A DNA stretch of 64,000 bases from Rufibacter sp. LB8 (lineage in GTDB: Bacteria; Bacteroidota; Bacteroidia; Cytophagales; Hymenobacteraceae), in the NCBI RefSeq assembly GCF_014876185.1, contig NZ_JADALJ010000001.1:434001-498000 (forward strand). Reading direction: 5' to 3'. Below the pieces are notes generated by a model. It ran no database searches. It was not told where the DNA came from and saw nothing but the letters and a program-made list of their open reading frames with translations. Below are positions 4,611 through 12,542 of this stretch, piece by piece (position 1 is the stretch's first letter; every line of letters begins with the position of its first letter). The position numbers were made by a program, and so were the translations under genes.

Positions 4611-4684
4611 GGGCCTATAGCTCATTCGGTTAGAGCAACTGACTCATAATCAGTAGGTGCTTGGTTCGATTCCAAGTGGGCCCA
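4611..4684 (+). tRNA. tRNA with CAU anticodon (Ile2 or Met)
   Basis: A complete cloverleaf can be folded: acceptor GGGCCTA/TGGGCCC, D-arm GCTC/GAGC, anticodon stem ACTGA/TCAGT with loop CTCATAA (anticodon CAT), T-arm CTTGG/CCAAG with loop TTCGATT, and discriminator A at 4684. CCA is not fully encoded. CAT may be elongator Met or lysidine-modified Ile2. The C4-G69 and C5-G68 pairs resemble the features used by TilS in E. coli tRNA-Ile2, which favours Ile2, but this is an inference. Its 3' half is duplicated at 5974. Confidence 0.96.
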
Positions 4685-4739
4685 CCCTCAAAATGAAGCA
4701 CTTATCTCACAAAACGAGGTAAGTGCTTTTTTGTTGGCG
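4636..4739 (+). repeat. Attachment-site-like direct repeat, left copy (tRNA 3' half plus terminator)
   Basis: The 104 bp from the tRNA anticodon stem to past its terminator recur at 5974-6077. The first 59 bp are identical between copies; the remaining 45 bp are diverged but colinear and of equal length. A partial tRNA 3' duplication of this kind is the usual footprint of integration by a tyrosine recombinase at a tRNA gene. Only the left copy is a functional tRNA. Confidence 0.85.
4696..4732 (+). terminator. Intrinsic terminator of the tRNA gene
   Basis: AAGCACTTA pairs perfectly with TAAGTGCTT and is followed by a T-run. In the duplicated copy (about 6034-6072) the left arm has decayed while the T-run survives. 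Confidence 0.8.
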
Positions 4740-4815
4740 AAATACAGACCCAAAAATTCATCTAGGGTAGCCTTCCTTTGTGGCGTTTCCTTTCTACTGT
4801 CCTAGATTTCTTGCT

Positions 4816-4823
4816 TATATTTG
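4816..4823 (+). promoter_or_regulatory. Bacteroidota-type -7 element upstream of the DUF1016 gene
   Basis: TATATTTG matches the TAnnTTTG -7 consensus and lies 53 nt before the ATG at 4877. The -33 element is weak (TTTC-like sequence about 20 nt upstream). The site lies inside the duplicated-tRNA-bounded segment, so the cargo gene would bring its own promoter. Confidence 0.4.
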
Positions 4824-4876
4824 ATAAAAGGCCTTTCTCAATTCTACGTTGAGTTGTAACATAAAGTACTATCTAC

Positions 4877-5959
4877 ATGAGCAATACGGTGACCTCCAAA
4901 ACGATAGATCAACCAGATGAGCAGCTTTTTGAAAAGATAGCGGCCCTTATTGCTGACGCCCGCCGCAAAGTAATGGCAACGGTTAATCTTGCCATGGTGC
5001 ATACCTACTTTGAGATTGGGCGCATGATTGTAGAAGATGAGCAACAGGGCAATGAACGCGCGGCCTACGGCAAAGCTGTCTTAAAGGAGCTTTCACTGAG
5101 GTTGAGCAAAGAATTTGGGAAAGGCTTTTCGGTGGAGAACCTTGATAGGATGCGTTTTTTCTACAAGACATACTCTCTCTCAAATTCGTCAACAGCGTTG
5201 ACGAATTTGCAGGGAAAAGACGAACGCGGAAAACAGGAGACACCGTCTCGTATTTTCGAACTTTCCTGGTCGCATTACATCAGGCTCATGCGCATTGACA
5301 ACCCTGATGAACGCCGATTCTATGAACTGGAGAGTGCCCAAAACAATTGGAGCCTGAAAGAATTGCAGCGGCAATTTGACAGCGCCCTGTATGAACGCCT
5401 GGCGCTAAGTCGAAACAAGGACCAAGTAAAAGAATTAGCTCAAAAAGGGCAGCAGATCCAGCGTCCGCAAGATGTGATCAAAGACCCGTATGTGCTGGAG
5501 TTTCTGGGACTGAAAGAAGCAGCAGCCTATTCAGAGTCCACCCTGGAGCACCGCATTATTGACGAACTTCAGCATTTCTTATTGGAACTGGGCAAAGGCT
5601 TCGCGTTTGTGGGCCGGCAGGTGCGGTTTTCCTTTGACGACAAGCATTTTAGGGTAGACCTGGTGTTCTACAACCGTTTCCTGCGGAGTTTTGTACTCCT
5701 AGACTTGAAAATTGGCGAAGTCAGCCACCAGGATTTAGGGCAGATGCAGATGTACGTGAACTACTATGACCGCTTTGTGAAAACAGAAGACGAAAACCCC
5801 ACTATTGGCATCATTCTTTGCAAAGAGAAAAACAATGCCTTGGTAGAAATAACGCTACCCAAAGAGAACAACCAAATTTTTGCCAGTAAGTATCAAACGT
5901 TTCTTCCTAGTAAGGAAGAATTAAAGGCGGTGTTGAATGATGCTGTGGAAGAGGTATAG
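4877..5959 (+). CDS. DUF1016 (YhcG-type) PDDEXK nuclease family protein
   Basis: A 360-residue protein with the YhcG architecture: an N-terminal helical domain (about 10-170, with TYFEIGRMIVEDEQQGNERA and LSWSHYIRLMRI) and a C-terminal PDDEXK nuclease-fold domain (about 195-350). Candidate catalytic residues are D261 in VDLVFYNRFL and D276/K278 in LLDLKIGE, followed by HQDLGQMQMYVNYYD. Family members are frequent passengers of type I restriction loci and defence islands; the substrate is unproven. It is the only gene between two copies of a tRNA 3' end, which argues for acquisition by transfer. It ends 14 nt before the right repeat. Confidence 0.9.
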   Translation: MSNTVTSKTIDQPDEQLFEKIAALIADARRKVMATVNLAMVHTYFEIGRMIVEDEQQGNERAAYGKAVLKELSLRLSKEFGKGFSVENLDRMRFFYKTYSLSNSSTALTNLQGKDERGKQETPSRIFELSWSHYIRLMRIDNPDERRFYELESAQNNWSLKELQRQFDSALYERLALSRNKDQVKELAQKGQQIQRPQDVIKDPYVLEFLGLKEAAAYSESTLEHRIIDELQHFLLELGKGFAFVGRQVRFSFDDKHFRVDLVFYNRFLRSFVLLDLKIGEVSHQDLGQMQMYVNYYDRFVKTEDENPTIGIILCKEKNNALVEITLPKENNQIFASKYQTFLPSKEELKAVLNDAVEEV

Positions 5960-5973
5960 TAAGTCTGTTTAAC

Positions 5974-6077
5974 CAACTGACTCATAATCAGTAGGTGCTT
6001 GGTTCGATTCCAAGTGGGCCCACCCTCAAAATTAACCACTCATCTCACAAAGCCAAGTAGGTGCTTTTTTGTTGGCG
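5974..6077 (+). repeat. Attachment-site-like direct repeat, right copy (truncated tRNA)
   Basis: It repeats 4636-4739: identical for 59 bp from CAACTGACTC to CCCTCAAAAT, then 45 bp of diverged terminator sequence ending in TTGTTGGCG. The 5' half of the tRNA is absent, so this is not a functional tRNA gene. Confidence 0.85.
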
Positions 6078-6218
6078 CTCTTCCTAGCCAAAAATTCAAA
6101 TACATAAGCCAAGTGGACAGCTGTGTAAAATATAAAATGCCATAATTTTCTAACACAGGAAGGCAAGTCATAGGTAAGCTAAAAACCTCACAATAGTTAG
6201 TTTCTAACTAACCTGAAA

Positions 6219-6380
6219 CTAATCTTCATCCTTACTCTTATTGTCGTCTGTATCCTCCTTCTCAGATGTGCTTCGCTTGGCTTGTTGGGCAGCCGCTTTC
6301 AGGCGGGCCTGGTTTTCTTTTCGCTCCTTAAATTCTTTCTGGCGCTGCTTCTTCTGTTGGTCTGCTGATCTGGTACTCAT
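6219..6380 (-). CDS. Small charged hypothetical protein (53 aa)
   Basis: An ATG at 6380 opens a 53-codon frame ending in TAG at 6219. The product begins MSTRSADQQKKQRQKEFKER and ends in a very acidic tail (EKEDTDDNKSKDED). The first two thirds are Lys/Arg/Gln-rich and predicted helical or coiled; there are no hydrophobic segments. Codon use is coherent, and the composition resembles small basic proteins found in Bacteroidota, but I recognise no family. It lies just outside the right tRNA repeat. It may be spurious because of its size. Confidence 0.5.
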   Translation of the reverse strand: MSTRSADQQKKQRQKEFKERKENQARLKAAAQQAKRSTSEKEDTDDNKSKDED

Positions 6381-6685
6381 AGGCTAGGGTATTTTTTATA
6401 TCTACGGACCTGGTGAACGCTTGTTAATCTTTGATTACCAAGGGATGGGATATACCATCTGGAGCATCGCTTTATATAGGGGCCTTGCCCGCATAGCATA
6501 AAGAAAACGGTAGATTCATGAGATACCTTATATTGCTTTTCTGGTAATGACCTTACGGCTCCGGATTCTATATTATTTGAAGCTGGTTCATTTGCCAAAA
6601 TCAAATTTAAAGGCGTTCTTTAGTGACCTGCAACGTACTTCTGCTGCCCATGAACACCTTTACATCCCCCAAAAACTGAGTTTGC

Positions 6686-7432
6686 ATGTCTACTTCAAAT
6701 TTCAGGTTTTTAGAAGAGGAGTTTCCTATTTTGTTCAATTTAGGGCAATCGGCGGAATTTAACTTGTATCAAGACCCGGTTACGGCCTCGTTTAAAATAA
6801 GGCAATTTGGGGAGCGGCTTACAGAGAAATTGTTTGAGGAACATAAGTTGGAGTTCCCGGCTGAGAATTCTTTTCATAACCGCATCAAAACACTTGAGTT
6901 TGGCAGGATTCTACCCAATAACATCAAAGACCTTTTCTTTCATATCAAAGAGAAAGGGAATATTGCAGTCCATCAGAACAAAGCCACGGTAGATGAGGCT
7001 AAACACGCTCTCTTTCTGTGTTATAAGATAAGCAAGTGGTTTTATGAAACCTACGCCACTGTTCCCGCAGACATAACTGCCTTCAAGTTTCAAATGCCGG
7101 CGGAACTTGACACCCGCCATGCCCTGTATGTTCTGGAAACCGATTACAAGAACCTAGAGCAACGGTTTGAGCAATTACTGCAGGAACGGCAAACTACAGG
7201 ATTGCCAGAAGAGACGCAGCAAGTTATTCAGCAAAGATCTGAGAAAGCGGCCAGCAAGATAGACCAGCTTCCGCAGGCCTTGCTGGCCAAAGCGTTCAGA
7301 GGCGAACTGGTACCGCAAGACCCGCAAGACGAGCCCGCCAGCGTACTGCTGCAAAAGATAAAAGCCGCTCAAGCTAGCACCCCCAAGGCCAAGAAAACCA
7401 AAGGAGAAAACCAAACGGAACTGGCGCTGTAA
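6686..7432 (+). CDS. HsdR N-terminal (DUF4145)/HsdS C-terminal chimeric protein
   Basis: A 248-residue protein combining parts of two type I restriction subunits. Residues 1-125 (SNFRFLEEEFPILFNLGQSA, KIRQFGERL, HIKEKGNIAVH) match the DUF4145 region that opens many HsdR subunits. After a helical linker (145-190), residues 193-227 (LPQALLAKAFRGELVPQD, then EPASVLLQKI) match the conserved C-terminal tail of HsdS specificity subunits. Neither the ATPase/nuclease of HsdR nor any target-recognition domain remains, and no hsdM is nearby. It is either an in-frame deletion relic of a type I operon or a small stand-alone family. The ATG at 6686 fits the HsdR-like start. Confidence 0.8.
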   Translation: MSTSNFRFLEEEFPILFNLGQSAEFNLYQDPVTASFKIRQFGERLTEKLFEEHKLEFPAENSFHNRIKTLEFGRILPNNIKDLFFHIKEKGNIAVHQNKATVDEAKHALFLCYKISKWFYETYATVPADITAFKFQMPAELDTRHALYVLETDYKNLEQRFEQLLQERQTTGLPEETQQVIQQRSEKAASKIDQLPQALLAKAFRGELVPQDPQDEPASVLLQKIKAAQASTPKAKKTKGENQTELAL

Positions 7433-7871
7433 CACCGGCTCCCTCTTTTTGTCATCCTGAAAGGACCTTGTGGGCCAGCTAGAAAAGCGCTGTCGTAAAC
7501 GCTAAACCTCAGAGGTTTTGAAAACCTGTGAGGATTTTACAGTACGTTTTCGGCCTCATTTTGAGAAATAAAGCCGAAAGCAGCTTCTAAGTAGGCATAT
7601 TGACAACCAATTGCTGTTCAGGATTTCCTAATCCCCGACAGAGGGCTTTCGGATTGATAAATCCGAAAGAGCAAGGGAGCAAGTTCCTGCCCTTCGCCCA
7701 CAAGGCCTTTCCAAGATGATAGGAAGGGGAGGCGTATTCGGCCTCACTTTGGGAAATGAAGCCGAAAACGTTTTTCAAGCAAATTGGGGCAGAAGCTTTA
7801 TCATATTTCAATTTATTAGTAGTTTGTAAAAATTCTATAGACCTATTTTTATTTAAATATTTGAGAAAGAC
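7433..7871. repeat. Intergenic nest of degenerate repeats
   Basis: No convincing gene lies here. It holds two decayed family 1 palindromes (7544-7580, CGTTTTCGGCCTCATTTTG...; 7737-7771, TTCGGCCTCACTTTG...GCCGAAAACG), a dyad in CCTCAGAGGTTTTGAAAACC (about 7505-7535), a dyad GGCTTTCGGATT/AATCCGAAAG (about 7646-7670), and GTCATCCTGAAAGGA followed by GTGGGCCAGCTA (7451-7480), of which GTGGGCCAGCTA recurs near 37880. The end (7800-7871) is AT-rich and probably holds the promoter of the next gene. Confidence 0.6.
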
Positions 7872-8114
7872 ATGGCCAGTTGTTACAGATGTGGTGCGTC
7901 AGGCGCAGACTATAGAAGGTCAGTGGTAACAGGTTCATCTTTTGGAGGCTGGGTGAGTTCTAGGTCTTCTGGCGGAAGTTCAAGGACCTATTATGGCGTA
8001 AGAAGCCATTGTGAAAGTTGCGCCGCCAGAATTGATATGTGGGGCCATATTAAGTGGGCAGCTATCTATTTTGGTTTGTTCTTTATCCTGTTTAAATACC
8101 TTTATGTAGGATGA
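7872..8114 (+). CDS. Small zinc-ribbon membrane protein
   Basis: An 80-residue protein with two cysteine pairs, CYRCG (4-7) and CESC near residue 48, likely a zinc ribbon, separated by a Ser/Gly-rich loop. A single C-terminal membrane helix follows (WAAIYFGLFFILFKYLYV). Its stop overlaps the start of the J-domain gene by 4 nt (ATGA), so the two are translationally coupled and probably work together at the membrane. I recognise no named family. The base composition of this gene and the next is visibly AT-richer than the flanking backbone, suggesting transfer. Confidence 0.75.
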   Translation: MASCYRCGASGADYRRSVVTGSSFGGWVSSRSSGGSSRTYYGVRSHCESCAARIDMWGHIKWAAIYFGLFFILFKYLYVG

Positions 8115-9049
8115 AAACATATTACGAAACACTAGGTGTCTCAGAAGAAGCATCTCAGGATGAAATTAAACAAGCATATCGTAAACTTGCCATTAAGCTC
8201 CATCCAGACAAGAACAGTAATGATACTTTCTTTGACCAATTATTTAAAAGCATTAATGAAGCCTACGAGGTAATAGGAGACGAAAAAAAGCGGGCTGCCT
8301 ACAACCATACGTTACGTGCAACAAAGAGAGGTAAAACACAGAATTCCCCTTTTGAAACAGAAGATTTTGATTTCCTTTTAGTAAATGCTACGTGCCTCAT
8401 CTTAGTAACCAGACAGGTTTCTTCTACCGGTCTGCAAAGAAATTTTAAAATTGGGTATGGCAGAGCAGGCCGCATTATTGACCAACTTGAACATTTGGGC
8501 ATTATATCTCCTTTTGATGGCCATGCTCCCAGAAAATTGCTGGTGAGTTATGACGGCGCACTTGAGCTATTAAGGAAAAATATTCCTGGGTTTTCTTTAC
8601 CTGTCTTCCAGAGCCAGTTTAAAAGCAACCAAGCGGCTTTTAAAGCCAATGCTTCACCAGTAGCAACTACTCCCCCTGCCTCACCTACAATAAGAAAGAA
8701 GAACAGAAAGCCAGCTTCTGTTTGGGCAAAAGTAACTTGTTGGAAATGGGTAAAACGGTTTTTTCTGTTTGCTAACTTACTTTTAGTATCAATTTATTTT
8801 TTCAGAGAAAGTCTCACTAACGCCAAAATTACGGCCACTAAAGGACTAAAAATAAGAGAGACTCCCCATGTAGATGCCGTCCCTATTACAGGCGTTCCCA
8901 ATAATCAGAGGGTGGAAATATTGCGTACAGATGGCCCGCTGGAAAAAATAGAAGGCAGGAAAGATAATTGGTATTATATCAGGTATAAAAATAAAGAGGG
9001 CTGGGCCTGGGGCGGTTTTATAAAAAGAGATAGCAAAGAAATTAGGTAA
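8111..9049 (+). CDS. J-domain / FtsK-gamma-like winged helix / SH3b membrane protein
   Basis: A 312-residue fusion. Residues 3-68 are a canonical J-domain with HPD at 31-33 (LAIKLHPDKN) and the YEVIGDEKKRAAY end; this should stimulate a DnaK-type chaperone. Residues about 86-147 (VTRQVSSTGLQRNFKIGYGR, then AGRIIDQLEHLGIISP) closely resemble the FtsK gamma winged-helix domain, which in FtsK reads KOPS DNA motifs. A linker rich in Ala/Pro, a short membrane helix (about 218-232, FFLFANLLLVSIYFF) and a C-terminal bacterial SH3 domain (about 241-306, DNWYYIRYKNKEGWAW) follow. The J and winged-helix parts would be cytoplasmic and SH3b periplasmic. Function of the combination is unknown. Confidence 0.85.
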   Translation: MKTYYETLGVSEEASQDEIKQAYRKLAIKLHPDKNSNDTFFDQLFKSINEAYEVIGDEKKRAAYNHTLRATKRGKTQNSPFETEDFDFLLVNATCLILVTRQVSSTGLQRNFKIGYGRAGRIIDQLEHLGIISPFDGHAPRKLLVSYDGALELLRKNIPGFSLPVFQSQFKSNQAAFKANASPVATTPPASPTIRKKNRKPASVWAKVTCWKWVKRFFLFANLLLVSIYFFRESLTNAKITATKGLKIRETPHVDAVPITGVPNNQRVEILRTDGPLEKIEGRKDNWYYIRYKNKEGWAWGGFIKRDSKEIR

Positions 9050-9078
9050 TATGACCTTAGTTTAATATTAAATTCACA

Positions 9079-10863
9079 ATGCAAAAATACTCCGTCAATC
9101 AATACCTTATAGAAACCGTGCTCGCCTGGGTAAAATCTGGCGAGATTGCCATACCAGAAATTCAACGCCCATTTGTCTGGGATAGCTCCAAAGTGCGTGA
9201 CCTTATGGACAGCCTGTACCAGGGCTATCCGGTAGGCTACGTCATCGCCTGGAAGAACCCCAACGTGAAACTGAAAGACGGCACGCTGAGTGACGGCAAA
9301 AAGGTGCTCATTGACGGGCAGCAGCGCATCACGGCCCTCACTGCCGCTATTCTGGGGCAGTACGTGGTAAACAAGAACTACAAGCGGGTTAAGATTAAGG
9401 TGGCGTTCCACCCCATAGACCAGCGGTTTGAGGTACAGAACCCCGCTATCTTAAAAGACAAAACTTGGCTGCCAGACATTGCCGAAGCCATTAACGGTGA
9501 CCTTTTTGAAATAGCTGAGAACTACTTTGAGCTGAACCCAGACGTAGACAAAAAACAGGTCCGCAATGCCTTCTCCACGCTCATCAACATTCCTAAAAAA
9601 CAAATAGGCATGATTGAATTGGCCCCAGACCTGGACATTGAAACCGTCACGGAGATTTTCATCAGAATTAACTCCAAAGGCGTGGTCCTGAGCCAGGCAG
9701 ACTTTGCCATGAGCAAAATTGCCTCCAACTCAGAATACAACGGCAACGAGCTGCGCAAAGCCATAGACTACTTTTGCCACCTGGCCATTGCGCCAGAGTT
9801 CTTCCGGCATATTGTAGACAATGACCCAGAGTTTGCCAAGACAAATTTCTTCCAGAAAATGCAATGGCTTAGGTCAGAGACAGAAGACCTCTATGACCCA
9901 GAATACACAGACTTAATCAGGGTGGCTTTTACGTCTAAATTCAACCGCGGCAAGCTGTCAGATTTAGTGAGCCTGCTATCAGGGCGAAATTTTGAGGCCA
10001 GAACGTTTGAGGCCGCCATTGCAGAGCAATCTTTTGCCACCTTGAGAGAAGGCGTGTACAACTTCATTAATGAAACCAACTACAAACGGTTCATCATGAT
10101 TGTGAAGTCGGCGGGCTTTATCTCGCCCAAGCTCATACGGTCGCAGAACGTGCTCAATTTCGCGTACATCCTGTTTCTAAAGCTTCGGGAACTGGGGGTG
10201 AATTCTGTTTCCATTGAGACCTACGTGCGTCGTTGGCTGGTGTATTCCATCTTAACGGGTCGCTATTCCGGCTCTGCCGAAAGTTATTTTGATTATGACA
10301 TCAAGCAAATCTCTGAGCGGTCCTTTGCCGAGTATCTAAAGGAAAAAGAAGAAGGTGAATTGTCTGAGGCTTTCTGGAATTTCTCACTGCCCCAGAGTTT
10401 AGATACCTCTGTGGCCAGCAGTCCGTACTTTCTGGTTTTTCTGGCGGCCCAGGTTAAAGCCAATGACAAAGGTTTTCTGTCTAAAGACATCACGGTGGCA
10501 GACCTTATTTCCCACAAAGGCGATATTCACCACCTCTTCCCCAAAGAATACCTGAAAAGAAACGGGCTTGACCGCAGCAAGTACAACCAGATTGCCAACT
10601 ACGCTTACATGCAAACCGAAATCAACATTAAGGTAGGCAGTAAATCTCCTAAAGAGTATTTCGGTCTTCTCTCAGCTCAAATGCAGGAACAGAATCTGCA
10701 ACTAAGCGGCCTAGCTAACCCAGAGGAGCTTTCCCATAACCTAAAGATGAATGCAGTACCAGTATCTTTGGCGCACATGGAGATACAGCACTACACAGAT
10801 TTTTTAATTGGCCGCCGGCGGCTGATGGCAGAAAAGATTAAAGATTATTATTTTTCGCTTTAG
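9079..10863 (+). CDS. DUF262-DUF1524 protein (GmrSD-like, single chain)
   Basis: A 594-residue protein. The N-terminal DUF262 domain has IPEIQRPFVW (25-34), YQGYPVGYVI and DGQQR (79-83), the ParB-like nucleotide-binding/hydrolysing signature of GmrS. A long helical middle follows. The C-terminal DUF1524-type His-Me nuclease motif is DIHHLFPKEYL at 482-492, with the downstream asparagine-rich NQIANYAYMQTEINIKVGSK. Proteins of this type include type IV modification-dependent restriction enzymes and related phage-defence nucleases. It lies 29 nt after the J-domain gene on the same strand and ends at a strong terminator, so it is plausibly in that operon. Its codon use is closer to the chromosome than that of the J-domain gene. 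Confidence 0.9.
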   Translation: MQKYSVNQYLIETVLAWVKSGEIAIPEIQRPFVWDSSKVRDLMDSLYQGYPVGYVIAWKNPNVKLKDGTLSDGKKVLIDGQQRITALTAAILGQYVVNKNYKRVKIKVAFHPIDQRFEVQNPAILKDKTWLPDIAEAINGDLFEIAENYFELNPDVDKKQVRNAFSTLINIPKKQIGMIELAPDLDIETVTEIFIRINSKGVVLSQADFAMSKIASNSEYNGNELRKAIDYFCHLAIAPEFFRHIVDNDPEFAKTNFFQKMQWLRSETEDLYDPEYTDLIRVAFTSKFNRGKLSDLVSLLSGRNFEARTFEAAIAEQSFATLREGVYNFINETNYKRFIMIVKSAGFISPKLIRSQNVLNFAYILFLKLRELGVNSVSIETYVRRWLVYSILTGRYSGSAESYFDYDIKQISERSFAEYLKEKEEGELSEAFWNFSLPQSLDTSVASSPYFLVFLAAQVKANDKGFLSKDITVADLISHKGDIHHLFPKEYLKRNGLDRSKYNQIANYAYMQTEINIKVGSKSPKEYFGLLSAQMQEQNLQLSGLANPEELSHNLKMNAVPVSLAHMEIQHYTDFLIGRRRLMAEKIKDYYFSL

Positions 10864-10867
10864 TTAC

Positions 10868-10908
10868 AAATAAAGCCCTCTCTGGTTAAACCAAAGAGGG
10901 CTTTATTT
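10868..10908 (+). terminator. Strong intrinsic terminator
   Basis: AAATAAAGCCCTCT and AGAGGGCTTTATTT form a perfect stem around a 13-nt loop, immediately after the DUF262 gene stop. Its A- and T-rich edges would let it act in both directions. Confidence 0.9.
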
Positions 10909-10990
10909 TCATTTCACCTTCTGACTAAAAGACGGAATTTAAATGGATTTAGAGAGCCTGTATAATAAAGTGGGAAAGATGTTATACTAA

Positions 10991-11070
10991 GCCGCCCTTA
11001 TTAGTGTTATCACCAACAAACCCTTTTACTGGGCTATTTTGCTTGTTGGTGATAACACCAACAAGGGCGC
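10991..11070. repeat. Inverted-repeat family 2, copy 1
   Basis: The left arm (GCCGCCCTTATTAGTGTTAT then CACCAACAA) pairs with the right arm (TTGTTGGTGATAACACCAAC then AAGGGCGC) around a loop of about 23 nt. A related copy sits at 41253-41332. Each arm also contains its own dyad (TTGTTGGTG/CACCAACAA). No coding sequence is present in 10909-11120. Confidence 0.8.
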
Positions 11071-11120
11071 AGGTCCATGGGCTTTTTTTACTAAACATGC
11101 TCTCAGGCAACCAATGATTA

Positions 11121-12542
11121 CTACCGCCATTCCTCGGTATTCTTAATCCCCAATTTCTCCGCATTAAACACCGGATCTAACCCTGCTTTCCGCTGGGTCT
11201 GGTAATCTTTGAGGGCGCGCATGGCAGGTTTTTGAAGCAATAGAATGGCCACAATGTTGAGCCAGGCCATGACGCCTACGCCAATATCGCCCAGGGCCCA
11301 GGCAGACTCGGCGGTTTTGATGGTACCGTAAAAAGTAGCACCCAGAATAAGGACACGTAAGCCCCAGAGCATCCATTTGTTGGTGCCTTTGCGCATGAGG
11401 TAACTCAGGTTGGTTTCGGCTATGTAGTAATAAGCCATGATGGTGGTAAACGCGAAGAGCAGTAGCGCAATGGCCACAAACCCACCGCCCAAGGCCGGGA
11501 AGTGCGTGTTCACCGCTTGCTGGGTAAACTCAGAACCAGTGGGCACGCCGGGCAAATGCTCTACCAGAAAGCCACCTGCTGGGTTCACCACATTGTATTG
11601 GCCGGTAAACAAAATCATAAACGCGGTGGCGGTACAGACAAAGAGCGTGTCTACGTACACAGAGAACGCCTGCACCAAACCCTGTTTTACTGGGTGACTG
11701 ACCTCCGCGGCGGCGGCGGCATGGGGCGCAGTGCCCTGTCCGGCTTCATTAGAGTAGATGCCTCTTTTCACGCCCCAGGAAACGGCCATGCCAAAAACAC
11801 CGGCAAAGGCAGGTTCCAGGTTGAAGGCAGAACGTATAATTAAGCTAAAGACTTCTGGCACCTGGCCAATGTTCATGAAGATGATGATAACCGCCATCAA
11901 GATATAGGCACCCGCCATAAAAGGCACCAGCACTTCTGCCACTTTGCCTATTCTCTTCACGCCGCCAAAGATGATGAGCCCCAAAGCAAGGGTAACGGCA
12001 CCGCCTGTGATGGCTGGCGGAATAGCAAACGCTTTGGTGATGCCCAAGGCAATACTGTTGCTTTGCACTCCCGGTAACAGTACCACCATGCTCACAATGG
12101 TAGCTACCGCAAAAACCACGGCATACCATTTTACACCTAGTCCTTTTTCAATGTAGAAGGCAGGTCCACCCCGGTACTGCCCGTCTTTCACCTCTTTGTA
12201 GATCTGACCTAGCGTGGCCTCCATAAACGCCGAGGCACTGCCCAGAAACGCAATCATCCACATCCAGAATATGGCACCGGGGCCACCCATGGCAATGGCG
12301 GTGGCCACGCCGGCAATGTTACCCGTACCCACACGCCCGGCAATAGCCACAGCAAAGGCCTGGAAAGAACTGATACCATTAGCAGAACTCGTATTATTAA
12401 AAAGCAGGCGAATCATCTCCTTGAAATAGCGCACCTGCAGAAAACCCGTTCTCACAGAAAAGTAAACACCTGTGCCCAGGCAAAGAATAATCAAGGCATT
12501 GCTCCAAACAATAGCATTGATATCGGCAATTAGTTTTTCCAT
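11121..12542 (-). CDS. Alanine/glycine:cation symporter (AgcS family)
   Basis: A 473-residue transporter with about eleven membrane helices, importing alanine or glycine with Na+ or H+. Family signatures are GRVGTGNIAGVATAIAMGGP near residue 70 and SNEAGQGTAPHAAAAAE in the middle. Full length for the family. The ATG at 12542 starts right at the first helix region. It is transcribed alone on the minus strand; the upstream gap to 13009 is divergent. An alanine dehydrogenase lies far away at 58 kb, so alanine catabolism may connect the two. Confidence 0.95.
   Translation of the reverse strand: MEKLIADINAIVWSNALIILCLGTGVYFSVRTGFLQVRYFKEMIRLLFNNTSSANGISSFQAFAVAIAGRVGTGNIAGVATAIAMGGPGAIFWMWMIAFLGSASAFMEATLGQIYKEVKDGQYRGGPAFYIEKGLGVKWYAVVFAVATIVSMVVLLPGVQSNSIALGITKAFAIPPAITGGAVTLALGLIIFGGVKRIGKVAEVLVPFMAGAYILMAVIIIFMNIGQVPEVFSLIIRSAFNLEPAFAGVFGMAVSWGVKRGIYSNEAGQGTAPHAAAAAEVSHPVKQGLVQAFSVYVDTLFVCTATAFMILFTGQYNVVNPAGGFLVEHLPGVPTGSEFTQQAVNTHFPALGGGFVAIALLLFAFTTIMAYYYIAETNLSYLMRKGTNKWMLWGLRVLILGATFYGTIKTAESAWALGDIGVGVMAWLNIVAILLLQKPAMRALKDYQTQRKAGLDPVFNAEKLGIKNTEEWR

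Follow-up and report, generated by a model that had tools for sequence, protein, structure and literature searches.

Type I restriction subunits of the PRK11448/EcoEI kind of HsdR carry a DUF4145 domain together with ResIII and EcoEI_R_C regions. DUF4145 has been assigned to the HEPN superfamily, and its fusion to restriction endonuclease-helicase proteins has been noted (PMC3710099). In the context of engineered type I fusions and truncations, rearrangements that delete or fuse parts of hsdR, hsdM and hsdS have been proposed as steps by which type I systems became type IIB/IIG enzymes (PMC6158711). Those constructs retain catalytic and recognition domains, whereas the chimeric open reading frame described here retains neither.

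The frame lies in a window of 64,000 nucleotides from Rufibacter sp. LB8, the window being the whole stretch of DNA that was analysed. Residues 1-192 of its product correspond to the HsdR N-terminus and residues 193-248 to the HsdS C-terminal tail (Table 1). A comparison with HsdR of the PRK11448/EcoEI type reveals that residues 1-192 represent the DUF4145 domain and the coiled coil of this subunit, whereas the nuclease, helicase and C-terminal domains (approximately residues 195-1081) are absent. In the same manner, residues 193-248 represent the conserved tail of the type I specificity subunit HsdS through the stop codon, whereas both target-recognition domains (TRDs) and the central conserved region are missing. 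The chimera is very probably the scar that a deletion left of a type I restriction-modification operon (hsdR-hsdM-hsdS, EcoEI/DUF4145 type), most likely a non-functional one, and it looks like an ordinary remnant rather than a new kind of protein.

Table 1. Coordinates of the chimeric frame, of its neighbours in the window and of an intact operon in a relative (positions refer to the window unless a locus is named)
Feature	Position	Strand	Remarks
Chimeric ORF, 248 aa	6686..7432	+	ATG-to-TAA frame with HsdR and HsdS profile matches
hsdR-derived part, codons 1-190	6686..7255	+	DUF4145 (HEPN-like) domain and coiled coil; ends just ahead of the nuclease domain
Junction overlap, 8 bp	7256..7263	+	AAGATAGA; K-I-D/E in one codon phase common to hsdR and hsdS relatives
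hsdS-derived part	7264..7432	+	Conserved C-terminal tail LPQALLAKAFRGELVPQDPQDEPASVLLQKIKA...; ends at the hsdS stop codon
tRNA-Met	4611-4686		Beside the same HAD gene in 7/7 congeners examined
DUF1016/YhcG nuclease gene	4877-5959		After tRNA-Met
Second, partial tRNA-Met 3' end and terminator	5964-6098		135 nt, 87% identity to 4626-4760
DnaJ-FtsK gamma-bacterial SH3 protein, 312 aa	8111-9049		Unusual domain combination (Pfam); directly upstream of the DUF262/GmrSD_N gene
Intact DUF262/GmrSD_N gene, 594 aa	9079..10863	+	Pfam GmrSD_N, E 9e-31
hsdR, intact operon	L037 (G039) 6064-9309		One strand with hsdM and hsdS; Pfam-confirmed
hsdM, intact operon	L037 (G039) 9313-10773		One strand with hsdR and hsdS; Pfam-confirmed
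hsdS, intact operon	L037 (G039) 10770-12542		One strand with hsdR and hsdM; Pfam-confirmed

Profile matches and predicted structure of the chimera

The Pfam model PF13643 (DUF4145) matches residues 24-109 of the chimera (E 2e-9; score of 37.8 bits, with the cut-off at 23.1), and PADLOC HsdR models match residues 1-179 or 3-192. The NCBIfam model PRK11448 (type I endonuclease) matches residues 2-230 with an E value of 8e-33 and a score of 113 bits, which falls under the cut-off of 729, as the chimera lacks the greater part of the 1123-position model. Many PADLOC HsdS models match from approximately residue 180 to residue 242, and mostly it is the C-terminal end of these models that is aligned (best E 2.8e-17); the HsdS of EcoKI (PDB 2y7c) matches residues 180-235. 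With Pfam, no match to ResIII, HSDR_N or EcoEI_R_C is detected in the chimera, whereas such models do match intact HsdRs, and PF01420 (Methylase_S) gives no match either, only the tail beyond the last TRD being left. No N6_Mtase gene is present in this region of the window, and all five N6_Mtase matches of the genome are located elsewhere. The initial annotation had described an intact 248-aa frame that joins the DUF4145-bearing N-terminus of HsdR to the C-terminus of HsdS and lacks everything between them, including hsdM. This description is borne out by the ATG-to-TAA frame, by the matches and missing matches above, and by identities of 71-72% and 74% to the two subunits; both halves match their own families (HsdR and HsdS), and neither proves to be unrelated to them.

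In the AlphaFold2 prediction, residues 1-120 form a confident helical domain with pLDDT values mostly above 90, the coiled coil is predicted with lower confidence than this domain, and the HsdS tail is mostly disordered, with pLDDT values below 50 at residues 199-222 and 231-248. Among the best-scoring Foldseek matches, HEPN or HEPN-like structures predominate (1o3u, 2q00, 2hsb and 6m6u), with probabilities of 0.9-1 but E values above 0.05. The catalytic R-x4-6-H motif of HEPN RNases is not found in the chimera, in which the alignment reveals K90-GNIAV-H96, with lysine for arginine; lysine is also present at this position in many intact HsdR relatives. The product, if made, would consist of the HEPN-like N-domain of HsdR in folded form, followed by a coiled coil and by an HsdS tail that is loose. 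The chimera has no nuclease, helicase, methylase or DNA-recognition part and therefore cannot restrict or modify DNA. Upstream of the chimera, no site with a Bacteroidota-type promoter pattern is detected and sigma-70-like sites occur at the chance level, both of which are uninformative.

In the type I methylases whose structures have been solved, the conserved regions of HsdS are in contact with HsdM. The HsdS tail of the chimera is well conserved in sequence and the EcoKI tail matches it, as would be expected if the chimera acted as a decoy or dominant-negative assembly factor and used this tail to bind a resident type I methylase; a decoy or an immunity factor had also been considered in the initial annotation. 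An intact type I system is indeed present elsewhere in the genome (G000:C1, approximately 2.577-2.583 Mb), with a 991-aa HsdR that contains HSDR_N, a 456-aa HsdS and a 572-aa HsdM. However, this resident system is of another type, as its HsdR is without DUF4145 and exhibits no detectable similarity to the chimera. Additionally, no second gene with the HsdS tail of the chimera is found in its own genome, and the structure prediction shows the tail by itself as disordered, which makes a decoy or assembly factor very improbable; an immunity factor is likewise not supported. In a different part of the same genome (L089 6320-10201; G000:C1, approximately 1.152-1.156 Mb), an HsdM-like methylase match continues through TAG and TAA past a 499-aa frame, and this region is possibly another decaying type I system.

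Parental operon and junction

Full-length HsdRs of 1081 aa from the same bacterial family exhibit 71-72% protein identity to residues 1-193 of the chimera, and HsdS tails from this family exhibit 74-82% identity over parts of residues 187-239. An intact hsdR-hsdM-hsdS operon of this kind is listed in Table 1, and the same pair of matches is observed in further family members, in which the HsdS tail follows the start of HsdR at a distance of approximately 5.3-6.1 kb. The intact operons carry the halves of the chimera at their outer ends, and the chimera therefore represents the two outer ends of an hsdR-hsdM-hsdS operon.

The parental operon is not found in the genus, and the junction was therefore placed by comparison with relatives that are approximately 70% identical. 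In base-by-base pairwise DNA alignments, the hsdR similarity stops at 7263 and the hsdS similarity starts at 7256, which leaves an overlap of 8 bp. The BLAST limits agree, with the hsdR genes of two loci (L037 and L038) matching to 7263 and the hsdS gene of a third (L039) matching from 7256. The DNA identity to hsdS is 79% over 7256-7365 in L039 and 76% over 7258-7431 in L041, where the match to the hsdS 3' end runs through the last codon. The overlap is read as K-I-(D/E) in an identical phase in both genes, as shown by a listing of the codons at the junction in 11 hsdR and 7 hsdS relatives: AAG ATA GAG in hsdR, and AAA ATA GAT or AAG ATT GAC in hsdS. The exact fusion point of the chimera is at residues 191-193.

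According to this comparison, a single loss of approximately 5.0-5.5 kb joined codon 191-193 of hsdR to hsdS approximately 55 codons ahead of its stop, and the HsdR nuclease and helicase, the entire HsdM and all of the HsdS DNA-recognition domains were lost in this deletion, the size of which would be 5495 bp (G039) or 4957 bp (G082) when measured on intact operons. The event was presumably RecA-independent recombination or replication slippage between the 8-bp repeats. This microhomology is read in one codon phase in hsdR and hsdS alike, so that the deletion yields an in-frame product automatically, without selection. The junction-level comparison with intact operons thus supports the origin by one deletion across a type I operon that had been suggested at first reading.

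A misassembly could in principle also give an in-frame junction at a short repeat, but an 8-bp repeat is far too short for assembly collapse, and the genome is assembled in 2 contigs with 99.8% completeness. A search of the genome itself reveals one copy of the chimera and no other copy of either half elsewhere, and a sequencing or assembly artefact is scarcely credible.

The chimera protein was searched in the genomes of 197 relatives and in 390 order, 395 phylum and 204 family genomes, which are overlapping sets that comprise approximately 860 genomes. In the six-frame protein search of these genomes, no HsdR-HsdS fusion of the same kind is found, and no single frame contains both halves; the matches to the N-terminal part are hsdR genes or truncated hsdR fragments, and the matches to the tail are hsdS genes. 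The GTDB contigs, which cover close relatives only, give 3 matches, all of which are HsdRs over residues 1-193 with no fusion. No fusion is found in plasmids (query coverage of 56% or less among the matches listed, with 0 of 116 records reaching 80%) or in phages (query coverage of 55% or less), and viral contigs give no match to the chimera. The small family reused in defence islands that had been envisaged is thus not supported, with 0 homologues of the same architecture in the genomes, plasmids, phages and viral contigs, and a fusion that is unique among the searched genomes is what the initial annotation had itself equated with a deletion scar. Two other frames were considered and rejected. 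The 255-aa hsdS product of G082, which matches residues 108-248 and resembles half of the chimera, proves to be a short HsdS that has a single Methylase_S domain and is encoded downstream of an intact hsdM, and a 294-aa ORF in G052 is an HsdR cut within the nuclease domain to which no HsdS is joined.

A second hsdR remnant in the genus and selection on the hsdR-derived part

In a congener (G003), a 358-aa frame (L040 9214-10290, minus strand) contains hsdR residues 1-192 followed by the C-terminal part of DUF262, which is joined in frame from codon 400 onward and contains a frameshift near its end. The hsdR part of this remnant is 67% identical to that of the chimera, and the same N-terminal part is broken within approximately 10 bp of the codon at which the chimera is broken. 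However, the HsdS tail is present in the chimera only, and the DUF262 partner stands intact downstream in the window. The five bases past AAGATA in G003 fit hsdR at 4 of 5 positions and are followed by CCTGAAAGTGTG, as in DUF262 orthologues. The hsdR similarity thus appears to extend approximately 5 bases beyond the fusion point of the window, and G003 seems to have undergone its own deletion, which led from hsdR into DUF262. In trees of the N-terminal part, the window and G003 group together with modest support (79% and 63% in two trees).

Selection on the hsdR N-terminal part was evaluated with a branch codon model of 15 taxa, in which synonymous sites are saturated and the tree is weakly supported. 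The omega value of the window branch is 0.185 and that of the remaining branches is 0.042 (2dlnL 5.9; nominal p of approximately 0.016, uncorrected for the branches tested), with an undefined upper bound and a rise that is modest. The G003 branch has an omega value of 0.091, which is not significant, and the two nearest intact HsdR control branches exhibit no rise (2dlnL 0.05 each). In an earlier 9-taxon codon model, the rise on the window branch is not significant (2dlnL 1.9). Because of the saturation, these omega values give direction and not size. Where at least 90% of the intact HsdRs agree, 4/62 sites are changed in the window and 6/62 in G003, compared with 1/62 in each of the two nearest intact relatives, and up to 13/68 such sites are changed in more distant intact HsdRs. 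The raised omega and the conserved-site changes fit a recent scar that has started to drift.

Two hsdR breaks approximately 10 bp apart within a 3.2-kb gene are poorly explained by plain chance, and the possible causes are an older chimera common to both genomes, a site prone to breakage, or selection that preserves the N-domain. If the chimera predated the split from G003 and had since been retained as a small protein with a function, its HEPN-like N-domain from HsdR would act alone or with another partner and the HsdS tail would be incidental. The open frame of G003, with the same hsdR part, its nearby break and its own link to DUF262, agrees with such a history, as do the dN/dS point estimates below 1 on both branches and the position of the break at a domain boundary just ahead of the HSDR nuclease domain, with an N-domain that is predicted to fold alone. 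However, G003 is without the HsdS tail, and the apparent continuation of its hsdR similarity past the fusion point of the window points to a separate deletion. Additionally, the DUF262 half of the G003 remnant is frameshifted, near-invariant HsdR residues are changed more often in both remnants than in their nearest intact relatives, and low dN/dS values on long branches are expected if both deletions are recent, which renders an older, functional chimera unlikely. Since the frame is intact and the sequence is mostly HsdR-like, a retained function keeps a low probability, and a retained HEPN-like domain is the principal alternative to a scar. It is quite unlikely that, after the loss of the type I operon in the genus, the HEPN-like N-domain of HsdR survived as a small stand-alone protein and took on a new role next to the DUF262 defence gene, with both breaks at one domain boundary reflecting selection for the domain. 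The chimera is probably a fairly recent deletion scar with no function.

Surroundings of the probable scar and its meaning

The region 4611-6098 is likely an insertion of a single YhcG gene at the tRNA, with the target end duplicated. The adjacency to DUF1016 that had been pointed out at first holds insofar as the gene is present nearby, but the gene lies beyond the duplicated tRNA-Met 3' end and may belong to a separate insertion. The chimera, the DnaJ-FtsK-gamma-SH3 protein and the DUF262 gene are located between this YhcG/tRNA insertion and a gene that is presumably, as named from its sequence alone, a Na:alanine symporter-like gene. In G013, a homologue of 6295-6395 of the window is located approximately 2 kb from the same symporter-like gene, and the chimera block is therefore probably an insertion separate from the YhcG one. 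Downstream of the chimera, a 35-nt sequence is present at 7545-7579 and again at 7733-7767. Similar copies occur elsewhere in the window, around 37.8, 49.9 and 59.7 kb, and the sequence is an interspersed short repeat.

The DUF262 gene of the window is 84-89% identical to its orthologues in genus g3, and the codon model indicates strong purifying selection for this gene along the window branch. No hsdR-like or hsdS-tail match is found in the fetched flanks of these orthologues, and the chimera is therefore not part of a fixed DUF262 system.

The locus provides a clean, base-level example of the death of a type I operon by a single short-repeat deletion that leaves an open frame. It also carries a warning for annotation, in that HsdR and HsdS profile matches within a single short protein can point to a scar rather than to a new defence factor.
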